Positions 219 through 20,584 of a stretch of 24,687 bases of DNA are shown here, in pieces. Each line of letters starts with the position of its first letter. The stretch's first letter is position 1. The stretch comes from a virus: positions 1 through 24,687 of the IMG/VR virus record IMGVR_UViG_3300025418_000439. The stretch is one strand, 5' to 3'. The notes beneath the pieces were generated by a model. The model saw nothing but the letters and a program-made list of their open reading frames with translations, was not told where the DNA came from and ran no database searches. The translations under genes and the position numbers were made by a program.

Positions 219-740
219 ATGGGCAAGTATACACATACCAAACAGGATGCATGGCAATGGCTTCAAGCCACACCACAGGATGTGCCTGACATTGTCAAGT
301 TAGTAGACACTAACTACAGTCAAGAAATTGAAGATGTTATCTTTATTAAGAATCCTACACGTCTACACTATCATCTACATCGTGCCATATTGGATCAACA
401 GTATGGTCTCAACACACAAAACATCAGCATTGCTCGAGATCGGAAGACACAGAAGCTTCTAGCTTGGGCATGGATTGAACGTGGCAAATACACAGTCTAT
501 TCCGATGAAGAAATGGCAGTGGCTGAATTTGCACACGTGGACTTGACCCTAAGTGTAAGAACACGCATGACGTTGATAGCACAGACATTGGAAATTTGGA
601 TCTGTTGGTGTGAACTACATGGCATACCTGTGCTGTGTTCAACCAGCATACGTGACAATCAACAAGGCTTTATGAGATTGCATGATCAATTTGGGTTTGT
701 GGTTCGCGGCAGTTTTGCATACAGAAAAATAGGAGATTAA
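219..740 (+). CDS. GNAT-like acetyltransferase of phage type
   Basis: 173 residues. The C-terminal part, roughly residues 100-170, looks like a GNAT fold of phage type: a helix rich in R/L/W (SVRTRMTLIAQTLEIW), a strand (PVLCSTSIRDN), then FMRLHDQFGFVVRGSFAYRK, which resembles the usual GNAT ending where a residue ladder 'F-x-LH-x-x-GF-x-x-G' forms the last helix and strands. The canonical acetyl-CoA loop Q/R-x-x-G-x-G/A is not clearly present, so catalysis is uncertain. GNAT enzymes move an acetyl group from acetyl-CoA to an amine; the substrate is unknown. The ribosome binding site AGGAA lies 9 bases before the start. The stop is one base before the GroES-like ATG, so the two are probably one operon. 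Confidence 0.5.
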   Translation: MGKYTHTKQDAWQWLQATPQDVPDIVKLVDTNYSQEIEDVIFIKNPTRLHYHLHRAILDQQYGLNTQNISIARDRKTQKLLAWAWIERGKYTVYSDEEMAVAEFAHVDLTLSVRTRMTLIAQTLEIWICWCELHGIPVLCSTSIRDNQQGFMRLHDQFGFVVRGSFAYRKIGD

Positions 741-741
741 T

Positions 742-987
742 ATGCGAGCAATTGGAAAGAACATTATAGTATCAAAACAACAACCAGAATCAACCACAGC
801 AGGTGGCATTATCTTTACAGATAATTCACGTGCTACTCTAGCACAGGTTATTGCTGTAGGTGATGAAGTTACCAGTGTTGCAGTGGGCGATCAACTGATC
901 ATTAATTGGTCACAGGCCAATCCAGTCAAACTGTCAGACGAGACCAATTACATTGTGTCTATTGATCAAGTGTTTGCGGTGGTTTAA
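742..987 (+). CDS. GroES-like co-chaperonin (Cpn10)
   Basis: 81 residues covering the Cpn10 fold: an N-terminal strand MRAIGKNIIV, a mobile loop with TTAGGIIF (residues 18-25, matching the GroES loop tip GGIVL that binds GroEL), then ATLAQVIAVGDEV and VAVGDQLIINW, ending in a C-terminal strand SIDQVFAVV. It is shorter than bacterial GroES (97 residues). The missing part corresponds to the roof hairpin between the strand ending VIAVG and the strand starting VGD, which T4 gp31 also lacks. Such proteins cap host GroEL during folding of phage proteins, classically the capsid protein; the client here is inferred, not seen. The start has an AGGAG site 6 bases upstream inside the end of the preceding gene. 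Confidence is high for the fold and moderate for the role. Confidence 0.88.
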   Translation: MRAIGKNIIVSKQQPESTTAGGIIFTDNSRATLAQVIAVGDEVTSVAVGDQLIINWSQANPVKLSDETNYIVSIDQVFAVV

Positions 988-1144: not shown

Positions 1145-1314
1145 TCTGGATTATAGTCTTCAGGTCTTAGACTATATTTGATATCCAAACATAGTTGTTC
1201 AATACGTGATATGCGTTGGTCAATAGCTGTTATCTTGTCTTCCAATTTTTGAAATTGATAGACATTATCACGTATGTGATCTTCTAAGCGATATAGTTCA
1301 GCTACCTTACTCAC
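1141..1314 (-). CDS. Small coiled-coil protein, 57 residues
   Basis: The GTG start overlaps the last codons of the Dps-like gene (GTGAGTAA) in another frame. The product runs from (M)SKVAELYRLEDHIRD to RPEDYNPD and then TAA. Hydrophobic residues recur every three to four positions from about residue 7 to 45 (L, I, V, F, L, I, I, I, I, L), with many E, K, D, Q and R between them, so a single amphipathic helix or coiled coil is expected. It fills the whole gap between the Dps-like gene and the convergent plus-strand operon. There is no ribosome binding site; expression would depend on coupling. The family is not recognised. The absence of stops over 57 codons plus the helix pattern support a real gene but do not prove it. 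Confidence 0.55.
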   Translation of the reverse strand: MSKVAELYRLEDHIRDNVYQFQKLEDKITAIDQRISRIEQLCLDIKYSLRPEDYNPD

Positions 1315-1777
1315 GACGTGGATGTCTTCCTGGAATGTCCAATGTTGCTTCTAACTTCCAACAAAATGCCGCAATGTGTTGAATATGGTCAGCGGCCATA
1401 TTAGATACATCTGGATAACGCATAGCTTGTCCAGCATCATCCATAGCGTGATAACATTCAATTAGTGCATACAGGTCATCTAAAACATTGTGTAAGAGAT
1501 CATCTGCATCCATTTGAGGCATGTCATCTGTGATGTCACTGGTCATTAGGACCATACCTAAAGTTTCTGGAATACGCCCAACGCCACAGGCCTGTATTTC
1601 TTCGCCTAGAGTATCAATATTATCTTGCAAATATTTGTAAATGTGCTTTAACAATTTGTGATCATTGTAAAAATTGCGACCACGTATGTTCATGTGTGCG
1701 GCATGTGCTTTATAGTAAGCTACAAAGTTTGTAGCAAACACACGTTCTAATACAGCATATAATTCATCTAATTCCAT
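1307..1777 (-). CDS. Dps-like ferritin (DNA starvation protein family)
   Basis: 156 residues, close to the usual Dps length. The first half matches Dps: YYKAHAAHMNIRGRNFYNDH followed by KLLKHIYKYLQDNIDTLGEEIQACG. Residues H28, H40, D55 and E59 have exactly the spacing (12, 27 and 31 from the first His) of the E. coli Dps ferroxidase ligands H51, H63, D78 and E82. The usual Trp after the first ligand His is Met, and the position of E. coli D67 is Lys. Dps proteins form 12-subunit shells that oxidise and store iron with peroxide and often bind DNA. No Lys-rich N-terminal tail is present, so DNA binding is doubtful. The ribosome binding site AAGGAA lies 5 bases before the ATG. The gene follows the last virion gene by 12 bases, so it is probably expressed late. 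Confidence 0.8.
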   Translation of the reverse strand: MELDELYAVLERVFATNFVAYYKAHAAHMNIRGRNFYNDHKLLKHIYKYLQDNIDTLGEEIQACGVGRIPETLGMVLMTSDITDDMPQMDADDLLHNVLDDLYALIECYHAMDDAGQAMRYPDVSNMAADHIQHIAAFCWKLEATLDIPGRHPRRE

Positions 1778-1789
1778 TTCAGTTCCTTA

Positions 1790-2659
1790 TCATTGTTTCT
1801 TTTTTGGTGTAAACATTTTCTCAAAATCATTTTGAAAATTTCTAACCTGTTCTGGTGACATACCTGGCATTGAGTTTTGTTGTATTACTCTTGCTTGTTC
1901 GTATGGATCACTTGGTAGTTGTTGATGTGAAGTTAATCCACTATACAATGCTGCCGCTGGTGCTAAGAAATTACCACCTCTAAGACCCATTCTTTGTATA
2001 GCTGGAGTATAACGTTCAGCCAATTGATTAATACGTTGAATAAAATTAGTAGCTTGACCTGCTGCAGGACCACCTGTAGCAGCAGCTTGAGCGGCCTGTT
2101 GAACTGCTTGTGCATTATATGGACTTACAGTTTTACTTAAAATCTGTTGTGTTGAAGTCATCGGTTGTGGAGCTGGACCTTGTGGAGTCATGTTTGGTGA
2201 CTTTAACGTTGCTGCCATTTGTTGTGGCGTCATGTTATCGGCTGTATATTGAGCAACACCCATTTCGTTAGCCATTGGAGCAACAGGACCTTGTGGTGCA
2301 TTACCTGTTGGTGCTACTGGTGCAGGTTGACCTTTAAAACGATCCATTAGGCTTGTGCCAACCTTATAAGCGGCTGCACCACCAAGTCCAATATCAACTA
2401 CTGGATTATGTAAAGCATGCAATACAGGACCAGCAACTGTTTGTGCAGCGGCAGCACCTTTTTCAGCAATACTTGGTCCTAGTTCAGGATTTGCAGATGT
2501 TGCACTTGGAGTAGGCATACCACCAGCAATATGATCAACTTCTTTGTCAGCATAATCGTCGTTAGCACGAGCACGAACTTGATCTTCGGTTACTGTTTCT
2601 GGAACGTTATCATAGGTATGACTTGATCCATCAGTAAAATTTACTGTATATGATGCCAT
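1790..2659 (-). CDS. Probable minor virion/ejection protein
   Basis: 289 residues from the ATG at 2659. That start is preferred over a TTG two codons upstream because it overlaps the preceding stop as TAATG and has an AAGGAG site about 9 bases upstream. The N-terminus MASYTVNFTDGSSHTYDNVP resembles a short beta domain seen at the start of phage internal proteins. A long Pro/Gln/Ala-rich middle follows, with a weakly hydrophobic stretch VVDIGLGGAAAYKVG, and the end is helical and charged. No catalytic motif is visible. It is the last of four such proteins in a row, which suggests a role in genome ejection or tail completion, by position only. Confidence 0.65.
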   Translation of the reverse strand: MASYTVNFTDGSSHTYDNVPETVTEDQVRARANDDYADKEVDHIAGGMPTPSATSANPELGPSIAEKGAAAAQTVAGPVLHALHNPVVDIGLGGAAAYKVGTSLMDRFKGQPAPVAPTGNAPQGPVAPMANEMGVAQYTADNMTPQQMAATLKSPNMTPQGPAPQPMTSTQQILSKTVSPYNAQAVQQAAQAAATGGPAAGQATNFIQRINQLAERYTPAIQRMGLRGGNFLAPAAALYSGLTSHQQLPSDPYEQARVIQQNSMPGMSPEQVRNFQNDFEKMFTPKKKQ

Positions 2660-5097
2660 TACCAACTACTCCTTGTATTTTTCTTTTCTTCTATGATACG
2701 TCCCAAAACTTCTTTAGTTCTTGGCGTTACCTTTTTGTTAAAATCTTTTAAACCACTATCTTCATATTGAGTTTTTAAACCAACTAATTGTTCAGCCATT
2801 AAGTCTTGATATTTTTTAACTACACCAACTAATTGTTTTGGACTATTTGCTGCATCAATTTCGCGACGTATTTCTTCACGATCACCCAATGCTGAACCTC
2901 CGGCTCCACTAACTGCTTTAGCAACTTCATTACCAACAATGGTTTTAAGGGCATTAAAATTAGTAATTTCGGGAGCACCGATTGCATAACGATATTCATT
3001 AGTTACTTGATTTGCTAATCGGAAATTATTATTATCTAATGCACGTGCAGCTTCATTTAATGTATCTAAATGTCCAACAGAAACATTTAAATTACGAACA
3101 GTATCACCCTGTCTGCCAGTGGTAAATGCTTGACGAGTTTTCTTAGCTGTTTCCCATTTACTTTCATCATATTCAGGATTGATTTGACGCACACGTGCCA
3201 TAACAGCTTGGTTGTATGGACCTTGTTGGCCACCAGCTGTAGCAGGTTTACTTTGATAATTAGCAATGGCCTGTGCTTGGCTTTCGATATTGTTTCTAAC
3301 CCCTGATGGAGCTGTAGGCTCTTCTTTGGCAGGAGGAGCACCAATGCGTTCCCAATGATTTGGATCAGTTTGTGGAATTGGTTGATACCAACCCTTTTGA
3401 TACAATTCTTGACGACCAGCTTTGGTCAATTTTGCCGCATCAATATCACGTGCATTATCTGCTTCATGCATACTTGTGCCTGGTTTGGCAATTGGATTAC
3501 CTTGTGCAGTAACACCTGGACGACCAGCGGCAACCGATTCATCCCACATGTCTTGTTGTTGTTGTGTTGGACGATATCCACTGATAACATGAATACTTGG
3601 ATCAGCAAATTCACCTTGTCCTGAAACTGTTTGCCCAGGTGCTTTTTGGTTAATCTGTGCTTGTCCCGGTGCACCTGGTTCACCTTGACGTGCTTCTTCA
3701 TATGGACTGACAATGCCATGTTCACGTGCATTGTAGTCATAGCCCACAATACTTCTAAACGCATGATTACCCAAATCTTGAATCTGTTGTTCTGTATAAA
3801 GTGTGCCGCCAGCTTTGTTATTATCTTTGCGTGCAGCAGTTTCAACTTGTTTCTTGCTGGCCATACCAGCTTCAATAATACTGTCTTTTTGTCCTAATGG
3901 TGTTAGACCCAATGGAGCATTTGGCAATATGGTTTTGGCAGTATTGTCATAGTAAACTGGTTCAATACGTCCTGGAACTGTGCTCATAGTAATCACGTGA
4001 CCATCACGTGTCTTATACATAGTCTTACCAGTTTCTGTGCCTTTGGCATAACCAGCTGACGCTAGGGCCAACTGATCTGGTGTTAATTCTTGACCAGATT
4101 TGGTATCAACACCATAACTAGCAACACCATCAGCACGTAAACGCACAATAGCTTGTGTGCCATCTGGCATGGTAATACGTTGTGTAGTTGCACCAGCGCC
4201 TAATTTGGCCTGTTCTTGTTGTGCCAATTGGCTTAGACCCAAACGATGATATAGATAGGCTTTTAGGTAACTGCCTTCTGGTTCATTCTTTTGCATGATA
4301 CGTGCAATACCTTTGGTATCATTGTTATCAACCAAACGATTAGCTTCATTGGTAGCTGCATTTTTGTTAGCAGTATCGTTGTAGTATTCCAACATTTTCT
4401 TGTTGGCCATTTGTTTGACATGCGCTGGAGGACCACCTTCTTCTGGAGTTCTTGGATCATTAGCAATCAATTGAATCTTACGTGGATCATCTTGCCAATT
4501 AACTAAATTTTGTTCATGTAGTTGTGGTGTATTAACGGATGTTGGTAATTGATTTACAGCTTGTTCAGTTGGAGTTTGTCCAACATCGCTAGACACATTA
4601 CCAGCAATTAAAGGTTGTTGTGGCGCAACTGGTTGTGCCAACTGTGGTGCAGGTGTCTGTGCTAACTGTGCCTGACCAGTAGGAGGCAATGCAGTTGGCA
4701 TAGGTGGTTGAATCTGTGCTTGACCTGGAGGTGGAACCATTTGTGTTTGATTCATTGTTGGCATCAACTGTGCCTGACCTGGAGGTGGAACCATAGCAGG
4801 TGCCTGTGAAGGCATAACGGGTTGACCTGGGGGTTGACTTAAAATTTGGTTAGCCGCAGGTGTTGGTGTTATAGCAGGAGGAGCAACAGGAGCAGTAGGT
4901 GCAGAAGCCTGTGGTTGTGCTTCTACCGGAGCCTGTGGAATCGCTGGAGCACTAGGAATTGTAGTAGTCTGTGATTGTGTGTTAGCATTTAAACCAATTC
5001 TATTAAAGTCTTGATTCATTCGATTTTGAAAATAACCATTTAACGCATCCGTAGATGAATTTGAACTATCTCCAAATAATTGTCCAATTAAACTCAT
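2659..5097 (-). CDS. Virion protein with M15-type peptidoglycan peptidase domain
   Basis: 812 residues. Residues 40-190 are a Pro/Gln linker with repeated PPPGQAQ/PTGQAQ units. Residues about 500-585 look like an M15 (VanY/DacB-type) zinc D,D-peptidase: SGYRP at 506-510, the metal motif S-x-H-x(6)-D as S542-M-H544 and D551, and D578-P-N-H581-W-E, where H581 would be the third zinc ligand and D578 replaces the usual catalytic Glu. The C-terminal 200 residues contain RQGDTVRNLNVSVGHLDTLNE and a conserved helical pattern (FNALKTIVGNEV, SPKQLVGVVKKYQDLM) that I recall from many phage internal virion proteins. Likely role: carried in the particle and used to open peptidoglycan during DNA entry. 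The ribosome binding site AAGGAT is 7 bases before the ATG. The next gene overlaps its stop as TAATG. Confidence 0.78.
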   Translation of the reverse strand: MSLIGQLFGDSSNSSTDALNGYFQNRMNQDFNRIGLNANTQSQTTTIPSAPAIPQAPVEAQPQASAPTAPVAPPAITPTPAANQILSQPPGQPVMPSQAPAMVPPPGQAQLMPTMNQTQMVPPPGQAQIQPPMPTALPPTGQAQLAQTPAPQLAQPVAPQQPLIAGNVSSDVGQTPTEQAVNQLPTSVNTPQLHEQNLVNWQDDPRKIQLIANDPRTPEEGGPPAHVKQMANKKMLEYYNDTANKNAATNEANRLVDNNDTKGIARIMQKNEPEGSYLKAYLYHRLGLSQLAQQEQAKLGAGATTQRITMPDGTQAIVRLRADGVASYGVDTKSGQELTPDQLALASAGYAKGTETGKTMYKTRDGHVITMSTVPGRIEPVYYDNTAKTILPNAPLGLTPLGQKDSIIEAGMASKKQVETAARKDNNKAGGTLYTEQQIQDLGNHAFRSIVGYDYNAREHGIVSPYEEARQGEPGAPGQAQINQKAPGQTVSGQGEFADPSIHVISGYRPTQQQQDMWDESVAAGRPGVTAQGNPIAKPGTSMHEADNARDIDAAKLTKAGRQELYQKGWYQPIPQTDPNHWERIGAPPAKEEPTAPSGVRNNIESQAQAIANYQSKPATAGGQQGPYNQAVMARVRQINPEYDESKWETAKKTRQAFTTGRQGDTVRNLNVSVGHLDTLNEAARALDNNNFRLANQVTNEYRYAIGAPEITNFNALKTIVGNEVAKAVSGAGGSALGDREEIRREIDAANSPKQLVGVVKKYQDLMAEQLVGLKTQYEDSGLKDFNKKVTPRTKEVLGRIIEEKKNTRSSW

Positions 5098-5106
5098 GTT
5101 GGATCC

Positions 5107-5829
5107 TTATAAACTAAAGCCAAGTTGATTCTGGGCTGTAGTAGTTGTCTGAGCTTGTGTGCCGCTAAAGTTAGGTAAGTAAGCACCTTGTGGTGTTCCA
5201 AACAATACGCTGGCATATTGATTGTATAACTGTTGTGGAGTAAGAGCAGCAGTAATTTGATTTTGTGCGGCTGTTTGTGCACCTGTAAGACCTTGTTGTC
5301 CTAGACCAGCTAATTGACTACCAGCTGATGCTTGTTGTTGTGCAATGTTATTCAATACTTGCGCTGCCGCTTGTTGTTGTGCTGCCTGTGTTGATGCCGC
5401 TGTTTGTTGTGCTGCCAATGCTTGGCGTGATGAACCTAATTGTCCGGCACCACCAAACTGTGCGCCCTGTTGTGCAATGTTTTGAGCATACTGTGCTTCA
5501 GCTGGCATTAGAGCCGCTTGCATTTCAGCTTGTTGATATTGTGGACTAGCAATATTTTGTAATGCATTGATACCTGAAGTATAAGCACTTTCACCACCAG
5601 AACCCAAAACGTTTTGTGCTTGGTTAGCTGTGCCAGCAAGGTTTTGTGCGGCATTAGTTATGCCAGGTGCTTCTTGATTATATAAATTGGTAGCACCTTG
5701 AACTGCTGTAGCATAGCTAGGAGCAATCTGACTGGTAAATAGGCCAGTCTGTGCTGCAATCATAGCATTTTGCTGTGGTGATAATGTTGGTATTGTTGTG
5801 GAACTTCCGCCGCCTTTTCCGCCGCTCAT
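5107..5829 (-). CDS. Internal virion/DNA ejection-type protein
   Basis: 240 residues beginning MSGGKGGGSSTTIPTLSPQQ. The short Gly/Ser/Thr head followed by a long Ala/Gln-rich helical body (residues about 60-210) is the pattern of small podovirus ejection proteins comparable to P22 gp7 or T7 gp14. I see a general resemblance only, with no catalytic motif. The motif GAGQLGSSRQALAAQQTA at roughly residues 125-145 occurs, in my memory, in this family. The start has GGAGAA about 6 bases upstream. The stop is 9 bases before the ATG of the peptidase gene. Likely located inside the capsid or tail and released at infection. Confidence 0.65.
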   Translation of the reverse strand: MSGGKGGGSSTTIPTLSPQQNAMIAAQTGLFTSQIAPSYATAVQGATNLYNQEAPGITNAAQNLAGTANQAQNVLGSGGESAYTSGINALQNIASPQYQQAEMQAALMPAEAQYAQNIAQQGAQFGGAGQLGSSRQALAAQQTAASTQAAQQQAAAQVLNNIAQQQASAGSQLAGLGQQGLTGAQTAAQNQITAALTPQQLYNQYASVLFGTPQGAYLPNFSGTQAQTTTTAQNQLGFSL

Positions 5830-5873: not shown

Positions 5874-8800
5874 TTAGGTTGGTGCTAAAGCATTTGCTGC
5901 TGCTAAGGTTTGGTTAGCTACATCTTGTGGGCTAACACTAGTTAATTGTCCTGCAGGTGTTGTAGATGTATTGGTGCCTGTTGTTGCTAGAGGCACAGTT
6001 GGATATGGCACATAATTTTGTGTTAGACCATATTGAACACCTTGACCTCGACCTGTGGCCATTTGTTGTTGTGTGTTTGGACCATAGATCTGAGCAAATC
6101 CTGGCACAGCGGGTGCAGGTGTCGTCATTTGCACTTGATTATTGTAAACATCACGTGCTAGGAAAGCACCAGGTTGATATGTTGGTGTAGCTGTGCCCTG
6201 TGCGGCCGCTTGTGTAAATTCACTAGGATATGATATAGCCGCTGGTGAAATTAACTGTCCTAGGTTAACAGCATTCGGGTTACCAAATGGAGTAGCAGGG
6301 GCATTAACAGCGTTAGTATTATAATTAGCAAGATCGGCCATATTTTGTGCATAACCATGTTGACCCCAATAGTATTGATCTATGCCGGGTTGACCGCCTG
6401 TTTGATAAAAAGGTGTTGGTTCAATAAATCCTGGATTAACTCCTGGATTGACCAATCCCGCACCATTGTAGGTTGGGATTGGGAAAAACTGTTGTTGATA
6501 ATTTGGTGCTGAAGGTAATTTGGCTGTGGCCACTTTGGCTATCAAATAACCTGCTGCAATGGCCATAGCAATATCACTAGCTGACCATCCGCTGGTATCG
6601 ACAGGAGTGCCATCTGATAAAGTATATGGGGCTTTTGGTGGAGTAATGCCAGTGCCACTAGGTGTTCCACCAGCAGGACCTGTTGTGGGTGTAGGCGTAG
6701 TTGTTTGTCCAGGTATATTTGGAACTGGAGTATTGGCACCTGGTGTTGGAGTTATAGTTGTAGCTGTTCCGCCTGTGCCGGGCGCTGTGCCTGGTGATAT
6801 ACCAGTGCCACCAGCTGTTCCACCTGCTGTGCCACCTGCGGACGAACCCGCAACTGCACCGCCTACAACACCGGCACCTGTAGCTACAGTAGTTGGACTA
6901 ACTGGTCCTGAGGTTGTAGTTTGCCCAGTAGTGCCATCGGTAGTGCTGGTAGTGCCATTTGGACTAGTAGTTGTTGTAGTGCCATCTGATGCAGTAGTTG
7001 TTGAAGCACCGTTTGGAGCATTGGTTGTTGTGGTTCCAGTATTTGGGTTGGTGGTTGTTACTGTATTTGGTTCTGTTGGGCTGACAGGCTGAACTGGTGC
7101 AGTAGTAGCACCACCACCACCGCCACCTCCACCGCCTGCGGCTGCTGCAACGGTGCCTCCAACTGCGGCTGTTCCTGCTAGGACTTGTCCAACAGTTAAT
7201 CCACCAGTGCCCGGAGTTTGGCTAACAACATCGCCAGTAGCACTATTGCTGGTCACTGTAGATCCATCTGCCATAGTTTCTGTTACTGTGCCATCTGCGT
7301 TTGAAACAGAATTTACTACTGTTTCTGAAGGATTTGCTGGAGCAGGTGGAGGTGCTGTGCCTCCAGTTGTTGGAATTGGTTCTGGTGTTGTTTGTAATTG
7401 AACAGTAACACCAGTCTGCATATTACCATCAATACTAATTGGCTGACCACTAGCAATAGCTTCATTGTATTGATCTAATGGAACTGTTTGTCCACCATTC
7501 ATAACAACATATTGTCCAGCACTTGGATCATTGGTTGGATTAAAATTAGAATCTAATAATGTATTTGGTTCAGCATCACTAACAACACCAGTTGATGTTA
7601 AATTATATGGTGCAGGTAAATTTGCAGGTGCCACTGGACCTGTGGTAGAAATTGGTTGTGTAGATGTTGCACCACTAGCATCTGTTGTTGTTACTGTTCC
7701 ATCTGTGGGGTTAGTTACTATAGTTGAATTGGTTAATGGATCTGTAGTTGTTACAGTTCCTGCGGGATCAACTGTGGCATTAACACCACTAGAAGTTGAA
7801 ATGGTTGTTGAACCATCTGGTGCAGTAGTAATATCAGCAGGAGGAACTGGGTCAGTGCTAGGAGTTATAGTTCCATTGGCAATGCCAGTTTGTGCTTCAG
7901 TAACTGCAGGAGTTAGTGCATCACTTAGGGCTTGTATACCATAAGCTGTTGCATATGATAGTGCAGCACCTTGTAGAATTTGTCCTGGTGTTTCACCTTT
8001 GACAGCACCGGCTGTTGCATTAGCCACAGCGGCTCCCAGTGGTCCAGCAACTATACTACCAGCAATAGTTGCTAGGGTTCCCCAACCACCTGGAATAATT
8101 TTACCAACTGCTTTGTCAAGACTAGCAAATAAATCACCAATACCTCCCAATGGATTACCATTTGGATTTTGATAATTTTGTATCACTGATGCTGGAGTGG
8201 CCGCATTAAAACCACCCATTGTTATTGGATTATAATTTTGATTTAAATTGGTATTGACCAATCCAGTCCAAGCAGGAGCATTTGTTATATTGGTTAATAC
8301 ATTATTGCCTCTAGCTACTTCAGAATTAGTAAATGCTTGATTAGCTGTTAACTGTGCTTGTTCAGCCGCTTGCTGTTTTGCGGCCGAAGCAGTTTGTGCC
8401 GCTTGATAAGCCGCAACTGCTTGTGCATTTTGTTGAGCCTGTGCCTGTGCTTGTGCTTGTGCCGCTTGTTGTGCCTGTTGTTGTTGTGTAACATAGGCCT
8501 GATTAGCGGCTAACTGTGCTTGTTCTGGTGCTTGCTGTGCGGCTTCAATTGCAGGAGCTGCGGCTTGTGCTGCCGCTACTTGCTGTGCTTGTTGTGCAGC
8601 AAATTGTTGTGCCTGTGCTTGTGCGGCCTGTTCTTGTTGTTGCAGTTGTGTAGTTAATGTTTGATTGGCAGCTAGTTGTGCTTGTATTGGCGCTTGCTGT
8701 TGTTGTGCTGAAGCAGTTTGTGCCGCTTGATAGGCAGCAACTGCCTGTGCCTGTTGTTGTCCCTGTGCTTGTGCGGCCTGATAAGCTGTTTGATTAGCTG

Positions 8801-9530
8801 TGGCCTGTTGTTGTGCCATTTGAATACTAGCAGGTGATGCATAGTTTGGCACAGTTGGATCAACACTTTGATATTTTACAACAGAAGTTTGTCCAGTAGA
8901 TGGATCAACGTTTGTTACTGAAGTATATGGTAAACTTGATATATAGGCCTGTTGTTTGGCAGTAGCAAGATCCGTTGTGGTAGCGTTTTGTGTTTGTGTA
9001 AACTGTTGTTGTGATAATGGTGCTACAGGACCAGTTGCACCCGTAGCAGGTTTTAAATCTTGGCCAACAGGAGTATAGTTGTTGCCTGAATTTGTTGAGT
9101 TAATTTGATACCATTGTGCTGGAGCACCTGTAGTAGGATCAGCAGGAATAGCCACATACTGTGTGCCATTGGGACTGGTCACTGTGCCATTAGATGTGGT
9201 AGGATCTGGCAATTTAAATGCGGCCTGTGCAGCAGTTGTTTGTTGTATCTTTTGTGTTTGTTGTTGCGCTACCTGTAGAGTCTGTGGACTAACATAATTA
9301 GGCATTGATGGATTAATGGTCTGAAATTGAGTGCCAGTAATTCCATACTGTTGTGCCACTGTGGGATCTAATGTAGATGTTGGTGTATAATTGGCTGAAA
9401 CTGATTGTTGAACAAAGTTGTTTATAACAGCCGCTGTTTGACCGGCTGCAATAGCACTTTTAACCGTGGCCTGCTGTGCTGGTGTTAGATAGTTATAATT
9501 AGGAATCTGTGAAGTAGTTAAGGTGGCCAT
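5874..9530 (-). CDS. Giant repeat-rich internal virion (ejection) protein
   Basis: 1218 residues from the ATG at 9530 (MATLTTSQIPNYNYLTPAQQ). The frame is open upstream to 9611, but that start would overlap the chaperone gene by 65 bases. The first half is a Gln/Ala-rich helical region with a 54-codon tandem repeat. The middle has a hydrophobic, Gly/Ala-rich stretch (coded around 8006-8085) that could cross a membrane, then Thr/Asn/Asp/Gly repeats of adhesin style (SPNGTTSTTDGTTGQ) and a nine-Gly run. Another possible membrane helix (SDIAMAIAAGYLIAKVATAKL) is coded at about 6517-6580. The size, helical repeats and potential membrane segments fit the large ejection proteins of podoviruses (analogues of P22 gp16/gp20 or T7 gp16), but no lytic motif is visible. 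There is no ribosome binding site; see the 14-base motif at 9528-9541. Confidence 0.68.
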   Translation of the reverse strand: MATLTTSQIPNYNYLTPAQQATVKSAIAAGQTAAVINNFVQQSVSANYTPTSTLDPTVAQQYGITGTQFQTINPSMPNYVSPQTLQVAQQQTQKIQQTTAAQAAFKLPDPTTSNGTVTSPNGTQYVAIPADPTTGAPAQWYQINSTNSGNNYTPVGQDLKPATGATGPVAPLSQQQFTQTQNATTTDLATAKQQAYISSLPYTSVTNVDPSTGQTSVVKYQSVDPTVPNYASPASIQMAQQQATANQTAYQAAQAQGQQQAQAVAAYQAAQTASAQQQQAPIQAQLAANQTLTTQLQQQEQAAQAQAQQFAAQQAQQVAAAQAAAPAIEAAQQAPEQAQLAANQAYVTQQQQAQQAAQAQAQAQAQQNAQAVAAYQAAQTASAAKQQAAEQAQLTANQAFTNSEVARGNNVLTNITNAPAWTGLVNTNLNQNYNPITMGGFNAATPASVIQNYQNPNGNPLGGIGDLFASLDKAVGKIIPGGWGTLATIAGSIVAGPLGAAVANATAGAVKGETPGQILQGAALSYATAYGIQALSDALTPAVTEAQTGIANGTITPSTDPVPPADITTAPDGSTTISTSSGVNATVDPAGTVTTTDPLTNSTIVTNPTDGTVTTTDASGATSTQPISTTGPVAPANLPAPYNLTSTGVVSDAEPNTLLDSNFNPTNDPSAGQYVVMNGGQTVPLDQYNEAIASGQPISIDGNMQTGVTVQLQTTPEPIPTTGGTAPPPAPANPSETVVNSVSNADGTVTETMADGSTVTSNSATGDVVSQTPGTGGLTVGQVLAGTAAVGGTVAAAAGGGGGGGGGATTAPVQPVSPTEPNTVTTTNPNTGTTTTNAPNGASTTTASDGTTTTTSPNGTTSTTDGTTGQTTTSGPVSPTTVATGAGVVGGAVAGSSAGGTAGGTAGGTGISPGTAPGTGGTATTITPTPGANTPVPNIPGQTTTPTPTTGPAGGTPSGTGITPPKAPYTLSDGTPVDTSGWSASDIAMAIAAGYLIAKVATAKLPSAPNYQQQFFPIPTYNGAGLVNPGVNPGFIEPTPFYQTGGQPGIDQYYWGQHGYAQNMADLANYNTNAVNAPATPFGNPNAVNLGQLISPAAISYPSEFTQAAAQGTATPTYQPGAFLARDVYNNQVQMTTPAPAVPGFAQIYGPNTQQQMATGRGQGVQYGLTQNYVPYPTVPLATTGTNTSTTPAGQLTSVSPQDVANQTLAAANALAPT
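8337..8792 (-). repeat. 54-codon tandem repeat in the ejection protein
   Basis: The coded anchor ANQ recurs at 8337, 8499, 8661 and 8790 on the plus strand, with spacings of 162, 162 and 129 bases. Units carry variants of AVAAYQAAQTASA and EQAQLAANQ. The exact 54-codon period with frame kept suggests duplication inside the gene followed by divergence, and an 11-codon loss in the N-terminal-most unit. Confidence 0.8.
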
Positions 9531-9541
9531 AGTAGTATTTA
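9531..9541 (-). promoter_or_regulatory. TAAATACTACT motif immediately before the ejection gene start
   Basis: The 16-base spacer between the chaperone stop and the ATG at 9530 ends in TAAATACTACT. The sequence including the ATG is identical over 14 bases to that at 18719-18732. No ribosome binding site is present. If TAAATA is a T4-late-type core ending at -6, transcription would begin on the A of the ATG. This is inference from geometry. Confidence 0.35.
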
Positions 9542-9546
9542 CCGGA

Positions 9547-9978
9547 TTATAACCATGTAGGTTTTGTAGGCCACTCAATTGTCGCAGGGAATCCTGACTG
9601 CTGTGGCACATCTAATAATGCTTGTCTATATGCGATCAATTGATTCTGTTGATCAGCAGTTAGTGTAGAATACCAAACAGGATTTACACGATCAATTTGA
9701 GATAATAGATCATTACGAATATTTCTAGTTTGACTAATAATTGTTGTAGAATCTATTAACCATTGTTTTGAAGTATAATCCCAGTTGGCCAAAGGATGAG
9801 GTTTATCATCTTTTTGTATTGCTGTTTTTGTTGCTATATCAATATAATGTTTATCACCATCATAATATCCTTCTACATAATGTTCAGTAGGTAAATTTGC
9901 CGCAATGGAATCATTATCGGATATTGACAATGTTTGAATTATTTGCCCGGTAGCAGGATCGTATTTGGTATATATCAT
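9547..9978 (-). CDS. Tail (fibre) assembly chaperone, APC-type
   Basis: 143 residues from the ATG at 9978 (MIYTKYDPATGQIIQTLSIS). This start overlaps the fibre stop as ATGA. A longer frame from 10002 would extend 28 bases into the fibre gene. The C-terminal 60 residues have the pattern RNDLLSQIDRVNPVWYSTLTAD..YRQALLDVPQQSGFPATIEWPTKP, which is the hallmark of the phage tail assembly chaperone family (Phage_tail_APC): R-x-x-R-D-x-LL, then YR-x-AL-x-D-x-P, ending WP-x-x-P. Such proteins help fibres fold or attach and normally sit directly after a fibre gene, as here. No strong ribosome binding site is seen, so coupling is likely. Confidence 0.75.
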   Translation of the reverse strand: MIYTKYDPATGQIIQTLSISDNDSIAANLPTEHYVEGYYDGDKHYIDIATKTAIQKDDKPHPLANWDYTSKQWLIDSTTIISQTRNIRNDLLSQIDRVNPVWYSTLTADQQNQLIAYRQALLDVPQQSGFPATIEWPTKPTWL

Positions 9979-13354: not shown

Positions 13355-14212
13355 TTAAGCTGTGTAACTACCTGAGGTAGTAAATGTCATTACAGTATTT
13401 CCAAGACCATCTGTTGTGACTGTTGGTGAACCTGTTGTGTATCCTGTGTAGCTGGCTGTGGGCACAGAAATAATAACAACACCAGATCCACCAGCACCTG
13501 ATTGAACAGAACTAGATCCAGAGCCGTTACGTGCTCCACCGCCACCGCCACCAGTATTGGCAGTTCCGTCAGTTCCATTTGTTCCACTATAGCCACCGGC
13601 ACCGCCGCCACCAAGACCGCCTGATCCACCTGGATTTGAGTCCGATCCACCGCCACCGCCACCTGCATAATAAGTTGATGTTCCAGTAATACTACTTGCT
13701 AGACCAATACCACCGTTACCTGGTGTTTGTTGATCAGCGGCATTGCCACCTGCGGCTCCTGCGCCACCACCACCTGCACCAGATCCACCATAGGGAGGAC
13801 CAGCTGGCACATTACCACCTGCATTACCTTGGCCACTTGTGCCTGCGGCACCAGAACCACCTGAGCCTCCACCAAAACTACCACCACCAGAACCACCAGA
13901 ACTTGGTGCTTGGTTTGTAAATGCTCCGCCTCCACCACCACCTATGGCTGTATTACCAAATGCAGTAGAATTAAATCCTTGAAAACCTGTGGTATATGTT
14001 CCAATGGCTGCAGGAGCGCCACCGCCAATAACAAATGAATAATTTGTGCCAGGTGTTAAGGTCTGTGTGCCAGATAATAGACCACCAGCACCACCACCAC
14101 CACCGCCCTGGCTACCGCCTGAACCACCACCAGCTACTATTAAATAACTGGCTGAATATGGAGCAGCGGCACTTTCAGCAAGATACCAACTTTGACGTTG
14201 TGCGCCAAACAT
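13355..14212 (-). CDS. Glycine-rich adhesin-like tail protein
   Basis: 285 residues. After MFGAQRQSWYLAESAAAPYS comes SYLIVAGGGSGGSQGGGGGG, the entry sequence of the widespread phage glycine-rich domain. Many Gly-rich segments follow (for example GGSGAGGGGAGAAGG), broken by variable loops such as FTNQAPSSGG, YYAGGGGGGSDSNPG and ARNGSGSSSVQS. The domain closes with GSGVVIISVPTA and a short beta end. Packed polyglycine-II helices with receptor-binding loops are known from gp38-type adhesins of T2/S16-like phages, and a similar architecture is plausible here. The gene overlaps the stop of the long fibre as TAATG, with AAAGGA about 8 bases upstream. It could be a tip protein of that fibre. Confidence 0.72.
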   Translation of the reverse strand: MFGAQRQSWYLAESAAAPYSASYLIVAGGGSGGSQGGGGGGAGGLLSGTQTLTPGTNYSFVIGGGAPAAIGTYTTGFQGFNSTAFGNTAIGGGGGGAFTNQAPSSGGSGGGSFGGGSGGSGAAGTSGQGNAGGNVPAGPPYGGSGAGGGGAGAAGGNAADQQTPGNGGIGLASSITGTSTYYAGGGGGGSDSNPGGSGGLGGGGAGGYSGTNGTDGTANTGGGGGGARNGSGSSSVQSGAGGSGVVIISVPTASYTGYTTGSPTVTTDGLGNTVMTFTTSGSYTA

Positions 14213-17200
14213 TAGACGTATCCTTTTACCAAACTACCATAGTAGTTGGTTCCATCAAAATAGAAGTTAATGATATCAATTGCACCAGCACTTGTGCTGA
14301 GTGTAGAACTACCACCTGCCCATTTAACACCTGACCATGACTGTGTTCTACCGCCAGTGCCATCCTGTGTTATGACCAAAGTCAGACTTGAACCAGCTGG
14401 CATATTACTAAATGATCCTGTTAGGTTACTGGTCAATGTCAAGGTATAGGTAGGAGCTTGTGATACATCAAATGCGATTGATCCACCTGTTGAACCTAAA
14501 GCTAACACCTTGTCACGATAGTTAACCAATTGGCCATTACCAGCAAGTTTAATATTGCTGGTAAATGATACGTTACCGCTGACGTTTAAGTTACCATTGG
14601 TTTGAATTTGTGTAGTAGAATCTTCATTTAATAGGGCATAAGCAGTGGTAGGACCTGAACTTGTTCCAACTGTGCCTGCCCAACCATTAGTAGTATGCAG
14701 ACCAATTGCTTGGTTAACAGTTAAATTAGCGGATAATGATGTTATACTACCAGCATACAAACGAGCCTGTTGAATGTTACCTTGATATTGTGCGCCGTTG
14801 CTAGATGAAAAACTAATACTGGTAAATGCACCAGTTCCATAAGTAACGTTAGCATTACCACCACTAGGTGTTACCAATATGCTGTTAAGTGTTCCAATTA
14901 CTGACTGTAGTGTTCCGTTGCCCACAACAGATGCAGTAGAACTTTGTGCTACTACTTGGCTACCAGTTTGTGTTCCATTCCAAATTTTACCCTGTGGATT
15001 TACTTCTAATAGAACAGTAGCACCACGAATACGATCTGACGTAGTCATTACGTTGGCTGTGGCAGGCATTACACCAAAATAGGTCAATGTGCCTGAAGTG
15101 GTTCTGTTGTTAGTAGTTTGATAGCTTGACTGCAAACTTACGTTAGCTGAAGTCACTTGAGCCACCACAAGACTTGAAGCATTAACAGGGCTAACTGGAG
15201 CAATAGGTGCCTGCAGAATACTGTTGGTATAAACAGGTGCATTTTGTAAGTAGTTGCTGAAATAGTTACCAATTACACTTGTGCTTGGAGTGCTTAATGG
15301 ATAAGCATTGGCAAATACACGTTGATTGATACCATCATATAAAACGTTGCCGCCCAGGTTACCTGAAAAGCCTGAAGCAGTTGGTAAGTTTGCAATTTGA
15401 CTAGCTGTTAGACCAGTTAATTGGCTACCATTACCTAAGAAATAATATCCAGAATTTGCAACAATATTGCCAGCAACTGAATAAGTGCTATAGACTGCGC
15501 CGTTGGCCCAAAATACGCCATTAGAAGTTGTGTATGATTGTGCTGTTACTACGTTGGCTCCATTGATGTTACCACCAAAATTACTACCAACTGTCCAGTT
15601 TAAATTAATATTACCGGTAGCAGCATAAAAACCTAAATCAGTATACTCAAACCACATGCCTCTAGGATTAGATATGCTGACGTTTCCACCAATAGCACCA
15701 ACAATAAATTCAGAGCCATTGTTTTCAATTATTGTTGTGCTAGAAGTATTGTAATTACCTATAACAACTTGGCTATTGGTTGGGGCACTATTACCAATGT
15801 TTAATTGAGTGGTTCCACTTAGGTAACCCTGTGCTTGCACGTTACTATAAGTTGCTCCACCAAAGGTAGCATTAGCATAAGTTTCAAATGCACCAAGATT
15901 GGCGTTTAGTGTATTAATGCTTGTGGCCAATGTAGAAGCATTGGCATTACTATAAATTTCATATGCACCAACGTTGGCATTCAATGTCTGTAGGTTAAGT
16001 GTAATAGTTCCAACGTTGGCATTGCTATAAATCTCAAATGCACCTATGTTGGCATTGATAGTATTAATCTGTGATTGTAGGCTTGCAGTATTGCTGTTAA
16101 TATTACTAAACATATTAACACCATTAGCCCAGAATATACCTGAGGTAGTGATTAAATTACCTGTTGTGGTTGTTCCAGTAGTATTTGTATTGCCACTGGT
16201 AGTTAGATTGGTAATTGTAGCATTATTGCCATTCAAGTTACCAGTAACCGTTAAATTACCAAAAGTTTGATTATTGACAGGATTTATAATGCCTGTTAAA
16301 AAACTACCTTGAGCTATGTTGGCACTGACTACGCCAACTTTGGTTACATAACCTGTTGAAGGTGCATAGTTTTGTAAGACGCCCGGAGTAGACGAACTTA
16401 GATATAGGATATCACCGGCTTTGTATGAAACCATTAATACATTGGCAACCAAACCAGAACTTACAACATAACCTATAGAATTAGCAGGAATTGATTGATT
16501 AGCAACACCAGCAACCTGTGCAGATGCCAATGTATTACCTTGTGCCAATGCAATATTAGGTGTGCTTCCATTTAGGCCTGTTATATAAACAGGAGCACCT
16601 TGAACAATAGTTGATCCAGTATTGTTGTAGGCTTTAAATTGTGTTTCTTGTCCAACATTGACTTCATTGTTGGATACACTATTGTAGTATGATACACTAT
16701 CTTGTATGCTGTCATACCACATTAGACCCTTAGCATAGCTAGGATTGTTTGGAGTAGACAATGTTATAAATTGACTAATGTTTACATTAGCTGCTTCAAT
16801 ATTGCCATTGTAATTTGGCAAGTAAGCGGCTACGTTGGCATTGCCATAGTTATTAGTTCCAAATGTTAGGTTAGCATAAGTTTCAAATGCGCCAACGTTA
16901 GCATCTAAGGTATTAAGGTGTGTATAAATTGCACCTACATTGGCATTACTATAAGTTTCAAATGCGCCAATGTTAGCTTGAATAGTTGTAATAGTTGGAT
17001 CATGTGGCAAATACGTTGCTACGTTAGAATTACCATAACTGCTGGTTCCAAAGGTAGCATTAGCATAAGTTTCAAATGCACCTAGGTTAGCTTCAATGGT
17101 TGTAATTGTTGGATCATGTGGCAAATATGCAGCAACGTTGGCGTTACCATAGCTACTGGTTATGCTACCAACAAAATAGGCCAATACTTTGGTATTAGAT

Positions 17201-17337
17201 GTTGTTGGGTCTAATGCAAAATTAACGTTACCATTATTATCTAATATGGTTAATAATTGTTGTGCTGAGTTTAATACGGTTGTTGTAGTAGTTAGACCGT
17301 ATAAACCTGTTGTGTTTGTTACTGCGACGTTAGCCAT
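14212..17337 (-). CDS. Long repetitive tail fibre protein
   Basis: 1041 residues. The N-terminal quarter and the middle carry six copies of A-N-x-G-A-F/Y-E-x-Y-A/S-N (for example ANLGAFETYANATFG), alternating with YGNANVAAYLP units; this looks like a trimeric shaft. Between them is a beta domain (KAYNNTGSTIVQGAPVYITG to GDILYLSSSTPG) that I recall from aquatic phage fibres and that resembles capsid-decoration-type domains. The last 105 residues (FDVSQAPTYTLTLTSNLTG, ITQDGTGGRTQSWSGVKWAGG, INFYFDGTNYYG) form a C-terminal domain common in phage tail proteins. No S74 autocleavage motif is seen. The ribosome binding site AAGGA is 9-10 bases before the ATG. Confidence 0.78.
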   Translation of the reverse strand: MANVAVTNTTGLYGLTTTTTVLNSAQQLLTILDNNGNVNFALDPTTSNTKVLAYFVGSITSSYGNANVAAYLPHDPTITTIEANLGAFETYANATFGTSSYGNSNVATYLPHDPTITTIQANIGAFETYSNANVGAIYTHLNTLDANVGAFETYANLTFGTNNYGNANVAAYLPNYNGNIEAANVNISQFITLSTPNNPSYAKGLMWYDSIQDSVSYYNSVSNNEVNVGQETQFKAYNNTGSTIVQGAPVYITGLNGSTPNIALAQGNTLASAQVAGVANQSIPANSIGYVVSSGLVANVLMVSYKAGDILYLSSSTPGVLQNYAPSTGYVTKVGVVSANIAQGSFLTGIINPVNNQTFGNLTVTGNLNGNNATITNLTTSGNTNTTGTTTTGNLITTSGIFWANGVNMFSNINSNTASLQSQINTINANIGAFEIYSNANVGTITLNLQTLNANVGAYEIYSNANASTLATSINTLNANLGAFETYANATFGGATYSNVQAQGYLSGTTQLNIGNSAPTNSQVVIGNYNTSSTTIIENNGSEFIVGAIGGNVSISNPRGMWFEYTDLGFYAATGNINLNWTVGSNFGGNINGANVVTAQSYTTSNGVFWANGAVYSTYSVAGNIVANSGYYFLGNGSQLTGLTASQIANLPTASGFSGNLGGNVLYDGINQRVFANAYPLSTPSTSVIGNYFSNYLQNAPVYTNSILQAPIAPVSPVNASSLVVAQVTSANVSLQSSYQTTNNRTTSGTLTYFGVMPATANVMTTSDRIRGATVLLEVNPQGKIWNGTQTGSQVVAQSSTASVVGNGTLQSVIGTLNSILVTPSGGNANVTYGTGAFTSISFSSSNGAQYQGNIQQARLYAGSITSLSANLTVNQAIGLHTTNGWAGTVGTSSGPTTAYALLNEDSTTQIQTNGNLNVSGNVSFTSNIKLAGNGQLVNYRDKVLALGSTGGSIAFDVSQAPTYTLTLTSNLTGSFSNMPAGSSLTLVITQDGTGGRTQSWSGVKWAGGSSTLSTSAGAIDIINFYFDGTNYYGSLVKGYV
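16876..17180 (-). repeat. In-frame direct repeats in the fibre gene
   Basis: On the plus strand the anchor ATAAGTTTCAAATGC starts at 16876, 16951 and 17065 (spacings 75 and 114 bases). GGATCATGTGGCAAAT starts at 16997 and 17111 (spacing 114, or 38 codons). Related but diverged copies occur near 15880-16040. All spacings are multiples of three. Confidence 0.75.
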
Positions 17338-18721: not shown

Positions 18722-18732
18722 AGTAGTATTTA
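18722..18732 (-). promoter_or_regulatory. TAAATACTACT motif immediately before the head/neck gene
   Basis: Identical to the sequence before the ejection gene at 9530, including the ATG (14 bases). Its first three bases are the stop codon of the endonuclease-like gene. Both genes with this motif lack any ribosome binding site. It could be a core of a T4-late-like promoter giving a leaderless message, or a translation signal. Confidence 0.35.
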
Positions 18733-19155
18733 GCGTTGAGCTTTAGAGGCCAGATAAGCCTGTCGTCTTGATTCGCTCCACGGTTTTCCTTTATTGGCTA
18801 AACTTTTCTTTAAACAAGTTTCATTAGATTGTTTTCTACCAGTGGCACGAATTCGCATGGCCTCTATTTGTTCTGGAGGTCGTTTTTTGCCTTTCCAATA
18901 ATTTGTTTTTCCTTTTGCGGCATCAGAACAATTTTTTGAATTAAGAACAATATCAACATTCTCTGGACTATACGGACCGGTGTCACCTTTTCGTGCCATA
19001 CAGTATTGTCCTAATTTACGACCTCGTTGATTCCACTTTCCTGAGTCATTCCACATTTTCCACCAAGTCTCAAATGTAAATAACCATTCAATTTTTCTTT
19101 TCCTTGCGGCACACAACTGTTGTGTATAACGTGCCTTAACCAATTTCATATCCAT
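18730..19155 (-). CDS. Homing-endonuclease-like protein with NUMOD3 repeats
   Basis: 141 residues from the ATG at 19155, chosen over a TTG at 19161 because GGAG lies 7 bases before the ATG but only 2 bases before the TTG. Residues 24-70 have the pattern W-L-x-TFE-x-W-x-x-MW-x-DSG-x-W and GQYCMARKGDTGPYSPENVDIVL, which I recall from free-standing endonuclease-like phage genes. Residues 88-138 hold about three NUMOD3-type DNA-binding units (GKKRPPEQIEAM, GRKQSNETCLKKSLANKG, GKPWSESRRQAY). A catalytic HNH or GIY-YIG triad is not visible, so it may cut by an unrecognised domain or only bind DNA. It sits alone between the capsid gene and the head/neck gene with its own promoter-like octamer, consistent with later insertion. 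Confidence 0.68.
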   Translation of the reverse strand: MDMKLVKARYTQQLCAARKRKIEWLFTFETWWKMWNDSGKWNQRGRKLGQYCMARKGDTGPYSPENVDIVLNSKNCSDAAKGKTNYWKGKKRPPEQIEAMRIRATGRKQSNETCLKKSLANKGKPWSESRRQAYLASKAQR

Positions 19156-19167
19156 TAACAATCTCCA

Positions 19168-19219: not shown

Positions 19220-20584
19220 TTAAAAGGAGGTATTGTCCCAAGCATTGAGACGAACTACGTTTGCAGCAGCACGTGTTCCGCCAACGATAGTAGAAGCACC
19301 ACCATTGCCTGAACCGAAGCTTACTGATTGACCAGTTGCAGAGATGTCATGTAAAACACCAACACCTGCTGGGTTACGAACAATCAATGTTCCCTCAAGG
19401 ATGAACTGATCTAAGCTAGCGTCAGCATTTGAGAAAACTTCATTGTTAGGACCTAGGTCACGTAATGAACCCCACTGAAGAACTTCTTCATTCAAGAAGT
19501 AGATCTGGTTACCGGAACCAACTTGGTCCATAATCCAAGAATCAAAAATCTCGTATGTATAGTTGAAGTCACCTTCGTATGTAGCGATTGTGTCACCACG
19601 CTCTGAGTTAACACGGTTGATGCTACGTGATGTAGGCATTGTGTCGCTCAAGTGTGTGCGTAGGCTTGTTGGGCAAACGATTGTGCGAATCTTCGCATTG
19701 AAACGTTGCTCAGCTGTAGTTACTAATTGCTTGTATAAGCTAGGAGCAAACTGTTGTAGTGTGCCTGTGTAGCTGTAGAAGCTAGAACCTAAACCTTCAC
19801 CTGTGTTTGTTAATGAACCTGAACTTAAAGATCCACCAACTACCCATGTGTTAGCTGTAGATTGTGTTGTAACGTCGCTTGACTCATTGTTGTATACTGT
19901 GTAGTATGTGCTTCCTGTAGCTGGGTTAAAGCTGTGTGTGCCAGCAAATGAGTTCAAACTACCCATACGACGACCTAATGCAGAGCTGTATGTAGTTGCA
20001 TTGATTGTGTAACCAGCAACACCATAAGCTGAACCAACTGTTACGTTAGCACTTGTGTTGTTTGGGTTAGCATCGCCTGTAGGATATGTGAATACTGTTG
20101 CAGGAATACCTACACCAGCAGCAATACCAGATTGACCAGAATATTTTGTTCCGATTTGGTCAGCACGAACGATCTGTGCTTCAACGTCGAACATCAATTC
20201 GATCAATTGCTTGACTTCTTGGTATGCCTGTGGATCACCACCAGACTGTTCAACAGCACGTGCTGTGCCAGTTGAGCCAACTACTGTGCTGAAAATCTGA
20301 GTATAGTTACCCAAGTTAGCACGGTTTTGTTGTTCTACTTGTGCAGAACTTACTGAAGCACCTTCTTGTTGTGCTTGAGTTTGTGGTAAGCGATAAACGT
20401 CGTTTGTCCATAATGGTAATGTGCTAACAACTTTACGCTTTTTAGCCATACACATATTTAAAACTGGGGTATCATCCTTAACACGGTTTGATACATCTAA
20501 ATCTAAATCTTTAACAACGATATCGGTTTGATAGAGGCCTGTGCCGTTACCGATAGCTGTGGTTGAATTGTAACCTGTAGACAT
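19220..20584 (-). CDS. Major capsid protein, SU10 type (HK97 fold, DUF5309)
   Basis: 454 residues. The N-terminal half matches the SU10-type capsid family: an early DIVVKDLDLDVSNRVKDDTPVL segment, then LPLWTNDVYRLPQTQAQQEG, RANLGNYTQIFSTVVGSTGTA, and a helix QEVKQLIELMFDVEAQIVRA. These correspond to the N-arm, the 'W-x-x-D' and 'EG' step, the 'R-x-N-x-TQI' step and the spine helix of the HK97 fold. The C-terminal half has KIRTIVCPTSLRTHLS, FNYTYEIFDSWIMDQVG and a beta end. It forms the shell around the scaffold. The ribosome binding site AAGGAGA is the strongest in the window, fitting high expression. It follows the scaffold gene by 27 bases. Confidence 0.88.
   Translation of the reverse strand: MSTGYNSTTAIGNGTGLYQTDIVVKDLDLDVSNRVKDDTPVLNMCMAKKRKVVSTLPLWTNDVYRLPQTQAQQEGASVSSAQVEQQNRANLGNYTQIFSTVVGSTGTARAVEQSGGDPQAYQEVKQLIELMFDVEAQIVRADQIGTKYSGQSGIAAGVGIPATVFTYPTGDANPNNTSANVTVGSAYGVAGYTINATTYSSALGRRMGSLNSFAGTHSFNPATGSTYYTVYNNESSDVTTQSTANTWVVGGSLSSGSLTNTGEGLGSSFYSYTGTLQQFAPSLYKQLVTTAEQRFNAKIRTIVCPTSLRTHLSDTMPTSRSINRVNSERGDTIATYEGDFNYTYEIFDSWIMDQVGSGNQIYFLNEEVLQWGSLRDLGPNNEVFSNADASLDQFILEGTLIVRNPAGVGVLHDISATGQSVSFGSGNGGASTIVGGTRAAANVVRLNAWDNTSF

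Follow-up and report, generated by a model that had tools for sequence, protein, structure and literature searches.

The gene at positions 1307-1777 of the window, a virus record of 24,687 bases analysed at its full length, encodes a Dps-type ferritin, and in the phage group represented by the window it is a core gene that always closes the virion operon. Dps proteins were already known from phages; this constant position within a group is new. As the best explanation, which we consider probably, though far from certainly, correct, we propose that the protein is a late, tail-less mini-ferritin whose protection is based on chemistry, namely the oxidation of Fe(II).

The virion operon of the window runs in the order portal (SU10 type), scaffold-like protein, major capsid protein (MCP, SU10 type), tail/fibre-like genes, gp240, a VanY-domain protein, gp291 and Dps. 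The initial annotation had placed the gene at the end of this operon, and this holds: Dps is the final gene of the minus-strand portal-MCP-tail block, three convergent plus-strand genes (a 63-aa ORF, a GroES-like gene and a gene for a 173-aa protein) follow, and relatives are arranged alike. The features concerned are:

22199-24541, minus strand: SU10-type portal protein (Pfam PF23899, 4e-46)
19220-20584, minus strand: SU10-type major capsid protein (Pfam PF17236, 1.7e-30)
5107-5829, minus strand: gp240, a conserved Ala/Gln-rich protein used as anchor for 80 related loci
2659-5097, minus strand: virion peptidoglycan hydrolase of 812 aa (Pfam VanY, 9.7e-6), probably an ejection or tail protein
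1790-2665, minus strand: gp291, a variable protein in the hydrolase-Dps interval, without a Pfam match, its place occupied in the relatives displayed
1307-1777, minus strand: Dps-type mini-ferritin ORF, 156 aa (Pfam, PHROG and PDB matches, AF2 model)
1601-1696, minus strand: ferroxidase-ligand segment, codons H28 to E59 (H28, H40, D55, E59; K44 at the Asp/Glu67 place), from the gap-free alignment with E. coli Dps
1310-1339, minus strand: short Arg/His C-terminal tail, codons 147-156 (DIPGRHPRRE), found in near relatives only and absent or acidic in distant ones
742-987, plus strand: phage GroES-like co-chaperonin (Pfam Cpn10, 1e-10; PHROG 3188), a conserved neighbour

A GroEL to go with the GroES-like gene was not noticed, and the 173-aa protein (219-740, plus strand), which has no convincing family match, adjoins GroES group-wide. 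The place of the VanY protein is taken in relatives by endolysin, lytic tail protein or tape-measure-type domains, as in a domain-swapping virion hydrolase. Structure prediction of gp240, in which a likeness to ejection proteins was sought, reached a pLDDT of 38 and was uninformative, and the PHROG scans gave no match for this protein. In a promoter and terminator scan, sites were no commoner than in shuffled sequences.

The Dps ORF is intact and starts with an ATG preceded by AAGGAA, the preceding gene ending 12 nt before it. Its product matches the Pfam Ferritin family PF00210 at 1.1e-7 (32.3 bits, above the cut-off of 24.5), as do 14/14 relatives. It also matches PHROG 3636, labelled 'DNA binding protein', at 3.8e-21, and the NCBIfam Dps equivalog at 2.7e-8, which is under that model's own cut-off. 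The PDB sequence matches listed for the protein were all Dps or Dps-based constructs, and the top solved structure for a profile of 14 relatives was HP-NAP (3.5e-20). The AlphaFold (AF2) monomer model is a four-helix bundle with a pLDDT of 86 and helices at residues 3-32, 37-63, 73-79, 91-118 and 122-146, the short third of which corresponds to the BC helix of Dps. Foldseek searches with this model returned many Dps chains, with TM-scores mostly between 0.8 and 0.9. The original reading as a Dps-like ferritin is thus borne out, and where a better profile match to an unrelated helical family had been envisaged as its refutation, the profile, PDB and fold matches led to Dps. By homology, the protein would form a dodecamer. 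HP-NAP of Helicobacter pylori and the Dps of Listeria innocua share its fold and the four ligands and likewise have no long DNA-binding tail; they differ in that the window protein is only about 20-25% identical to them, carries a non-acidic residue at position 67 and is encoded in a phage virion operon.

H28, H40, D55 and E59 of the window protein align without gaps with H51, H63, D78 and E82 of E. coli Dps (sequence from the K-12 genome record, numbering with Met as 1), in agreement with the ligand spacing first noted. The spacing H-x11-H-x14-D-x3-E arose in 0.24% of shuffles of the window protein. Pooling of all relative sets gave 73 distinct Dps sequences, with a median identity to the window protein of 39% and a minimum of 31%, and the four residues are invariant in 73/73. 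Ten columns are invariant altogether (L10, H28, N30, F36, H40, L43, Y47, D55, E59 and W140), and the probability that all four ligands would fall among them by chance is about 9e-6. The same four ligands are also present in the Dps of SU10, Aeromonas LAh_8 and cyanophage S-EIVl. The claim of a complete ferroxidase set, however, cannot be upheld, since Asp/Glu67 is the fifth ligand of the canonical Dps centre (PMC6675082) and E. coli D67 is replaced by Lys44 in the window protein. The equivalent position is non-acidic in 68/73 relatives (Q, K, G, N or R, with Lys, Gln or Gly in most of the relatives) and acidic in 5/73, and W52 is gone in 70/73. With these changes to the fifth ligand and W52 in most relatives, activity could be altered. 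Activity nevertheless remains plausible, judging from known proteins: Nostoc Dps4 has Asn at position 67 and yet oxidises Fe(II) with O2 (PMC6675082), and Gln occupies this position in 5lbh, a bacterial Dps of solved structure. Since atypical Dps without an acidic residue at position 67 are thus known, its absence bears on the subtype. Nostoc Dps4, which shares the non-acidic position 67, has a His-type centre with His78, whereas the phage family keeps Asp at that place (Asp55, 73/73). Neither the preferred oxidant nor mineral storage can be taken for granted for the window protein. Two further candidate changes were dropped: H25 (K48 in E. coli), at first taken as peculiar to the clade, since His occurs there in bacterial Dps too, and the loss of E64 (K41 in the window), since that position is variable among the aligned bacterial Dps.

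To avoid circularity, gp240 instead of Dps served as the search anchor for related loci. Among the 80 gp240 loci, which contain repeated and near-identical contigs, a Dps ORF was present in 75/75 of those that extend far enough downstream (about 4 kb or more), although these 75 are not independent events. In each, Dps lies on the same strand, 2.7-5.5 kb downstream of gp240, and closes the virion operon, following the hydrolase gene; in the remaining 5/80 loci the contigs end too soon. Barring contig ends and unmatched small genes, the gene order of the window is kept in the 18 loci retrieved with Dps itself as the query, and TerL lies upstream of the portal gene in relatives. In a separate set based on MCP, every contig of at least 33 kb contained a ferritin match. 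A true absence of Dps from some MCP relatives was considered and rejected, as the two such contigs that were read over their whole length stop before the Dps region. The dN/dS values of Dps against close relatives (0.07-0.11) indicate that the gene is under purifying selection, and distances for Dps and MCP correlate (Mantel r 0.43, p 0.001, n 15); together they fit an old, mostly vertically inherited gene. Its presence at a fixed place in 75/75 loci makes Dps a core late gene of the group, 'late' being our reading of its operon position. Alignments of Dps and MCP were compared with 84,980 bacterial and archaeal genomes for host or origin and had no relatives there. Several of the related contigs presumably come from lake sampling sites, and we call the group a lake group on that assumption.

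The description of a phage Dps as unusual does not hold as it stands. Phage records matching E. coli Dps numbered 125 and those matching SU10_067 151, including a few short unannotated records that resemble host DNA, and published descriptions of Dps exist for phages of Lactobacillus and of Bacteroides (PMC6669764, PMC8008677). For the Dps carried by Lactobacillus plantarum phages and by gut phages of Bacteroides, a gain in oxidative-stress tolerance was proposed (Kyrkou 2019; Benler 2021), and in the Lactobacillus phages the gene lies near DNA-metabolism genes, unlike that of the window. What does look uncommon is the place in the virion operon: in SU10, Aeromonas LAh_8, Streptomyces Mildred21 and Campylobacter CP20, Dps is surrounded by genes for replication or nucleotide metabolism, and in cyanophage S-EIVl its neighbour is sulfate adenylyltransferase, a contrast that is clear, if not exhaustive, among these five cultured phages. 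SU10_067, from the kuravirus Escherichia phage SU10, keeps the four ligands like the window protein, and the capsid and portal families of SU10 are related to those of the window. It differs in its location in an early nucleotide-metabolism region, its N-terminal extension and its retained D67. SU10_067 (L217:6270-6833) has counterparts in about a hundred coliphage records, often labelled DNA-binding, integrase or hypothetical protein. Several Dps-fold matches in a viral structure library are proteins of uncultured phages that bear the name 'prohead protease'; going by this name, they are possible Dps-protease fusions. The literature searched yielded nothing specific on Dps of freshwater phages or on Dps in phage particles.

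The suggestion that the protein lacks a Lys-rich tail also stood up. The window Dps begins at helix A, no Lys-rich flexible N-terminal tail occurs in it or in any of the group members compared, and most of the 73 relatives have no basic C-terminal tail: in most the chain finishes with helix D, and in several it has an acidic tail. The subclade of the window ends in a short, conserved Arg-rich tail of the GRHxxRGRR type, which could replace a Lys-rich N-terminal tail in a Dps that binds DNA and thereby compacts or shields the phage genome. This reading, to which the 'DNA binding protein' label of PHROG 3636 would lend itself, seems improbable to us, as the tail is absent or acidic in most relatives, the window protein has a pI of about 4.9 and a net charge of -13, and the label is an annotation rather than the outcome of a test. 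With most relatives tail-less or acidic, the group as a whole does not conserve tail-mediated DNA binding, although some DNA binding by the Arg-rich tail of the window's subclade is possible. For this branch, whose members share no conserved DNA-binding tail, the label probably misleads. PHROG 3636 matches 14/14 tested group members (best E 6.7e-27) and is known from the sources as a family without a role; the synteny and active-site pattern seen here are not described in them.

A ferritin-like cage could also store iron, and hypotheses on phages and iron exist in the literature, so that the protein might serve as a nutrient or anti-host device that deprives the host or competing phages of iron, instead of detoxifying it. 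We regard this as highly improbable. The acidic residue at position 67 of E. coli Dps is counted in the nucleation site (PMC6150300), and its loss suggests weaker mineral storage; moreover, no other iron-related genes were recognised near Dps in the Pfam and PHROG searches.

The position of the gene lends itself to a further reading, in which Dps is itself a virion protein: packaged into the particle, it would exit together with the DNA, as the ejection proteins of SU10 do, and shield the entering DNA or bind host iron at once. Dps is the last virion-operon gene in 75/75 loci, straight after the hydrolase/gp291 block, and the gene two before it has exchangeable peptidoglycan-hydrolase domains; the structural block of SU10 ends with the ejection proteins gp20-24, of which gp20 is a transglycosylase. 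The Dps-fold matches named 'prohead protease' in uncultured phages point in the same direction, by name only. Against these stand the SU10 homologue, which is encoded apart from the virion genes and goes unmentioned in the main text of the paper on the virion, and the geometry of the particle: a Dps 12-mer should exceed the width of the tail channel, and ejection would need to proceed as monomers. We therefore rate a packaged Dps as possible but rather unlikely, and the broader claim that a catalytic mini-ferritin is an obligatory part of the particle throughout this short-tailed phage group, packaged and perhaps also ejected, as unlikely.

We favour a late mini-ferritin that acts by Fe(II) oxidation. 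The family and fold, the four invariant ligands at a median identity of 39%, their retention in SU10, Aeromonas LAh_8 and S-EIVl, the presence in 75/75 loci and the dN/dS of 0.07-0.11 count for it, and the start at helix A, the tail-less or acidic relatives and HP-NAP as the best structure argue against a conserved tail-based DNA role; Lys, Gln or Gly at position 67 in most relatives and the loss of W52 (70/73) speak against it. The 12-mer, the ferroxidase activity, the late timing and the protective role, as we infer them, would be connected in the following hypothetical multistep mechanism, in which (i) Dps is made late, together with the virion proteins; (ii) its subunits assemble into a hollow 12-mer, as homology predicts; (iii) centres form at the dimer interfaces, with H28 and H40 from one subunit and D55 and E59 from its partner; (iv) these centres oxidise Fe(II) with peroxide or oxygen; and (v) with the Fenton reagents removed, virion proteins and replicated phage genomes are spared damage in the run-up to packaging and lysis and while these take place. 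The main action of the protein would then be chemical and not the coating of DNA.

Discussion of phage Dps has so far treated it as an occasional accessory, of help to the host in tolerating oxidative stress. In the present group of short-tailed phages, widespread and uncultivated, it belongs to the core genes, with ligands that stay invariant down to 31% identity, and so constant a place at the virion-operon end, unusual among phages, hints that the control of iron or peroxide matters late in infection. Two questions thereby become testable, namely whether late iron or peroxide chemistry is essential and whether Dps is in the particle. If it were packaged, incoming or packaged DNA would carry its own iron and peroxide defence.

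Two further observations concern the structural genes upstream. A homing-endonuclease-like insertion, judged as such by its sequence and patchy occurrence, lies by the MCP gene (18730-19161, minus strand) and is found in some relatives only. The very large, low-complexity tail/fibre-like genes at 5874-9611 and 14212-17337 (minus strand) differ strongly in length among relatives.
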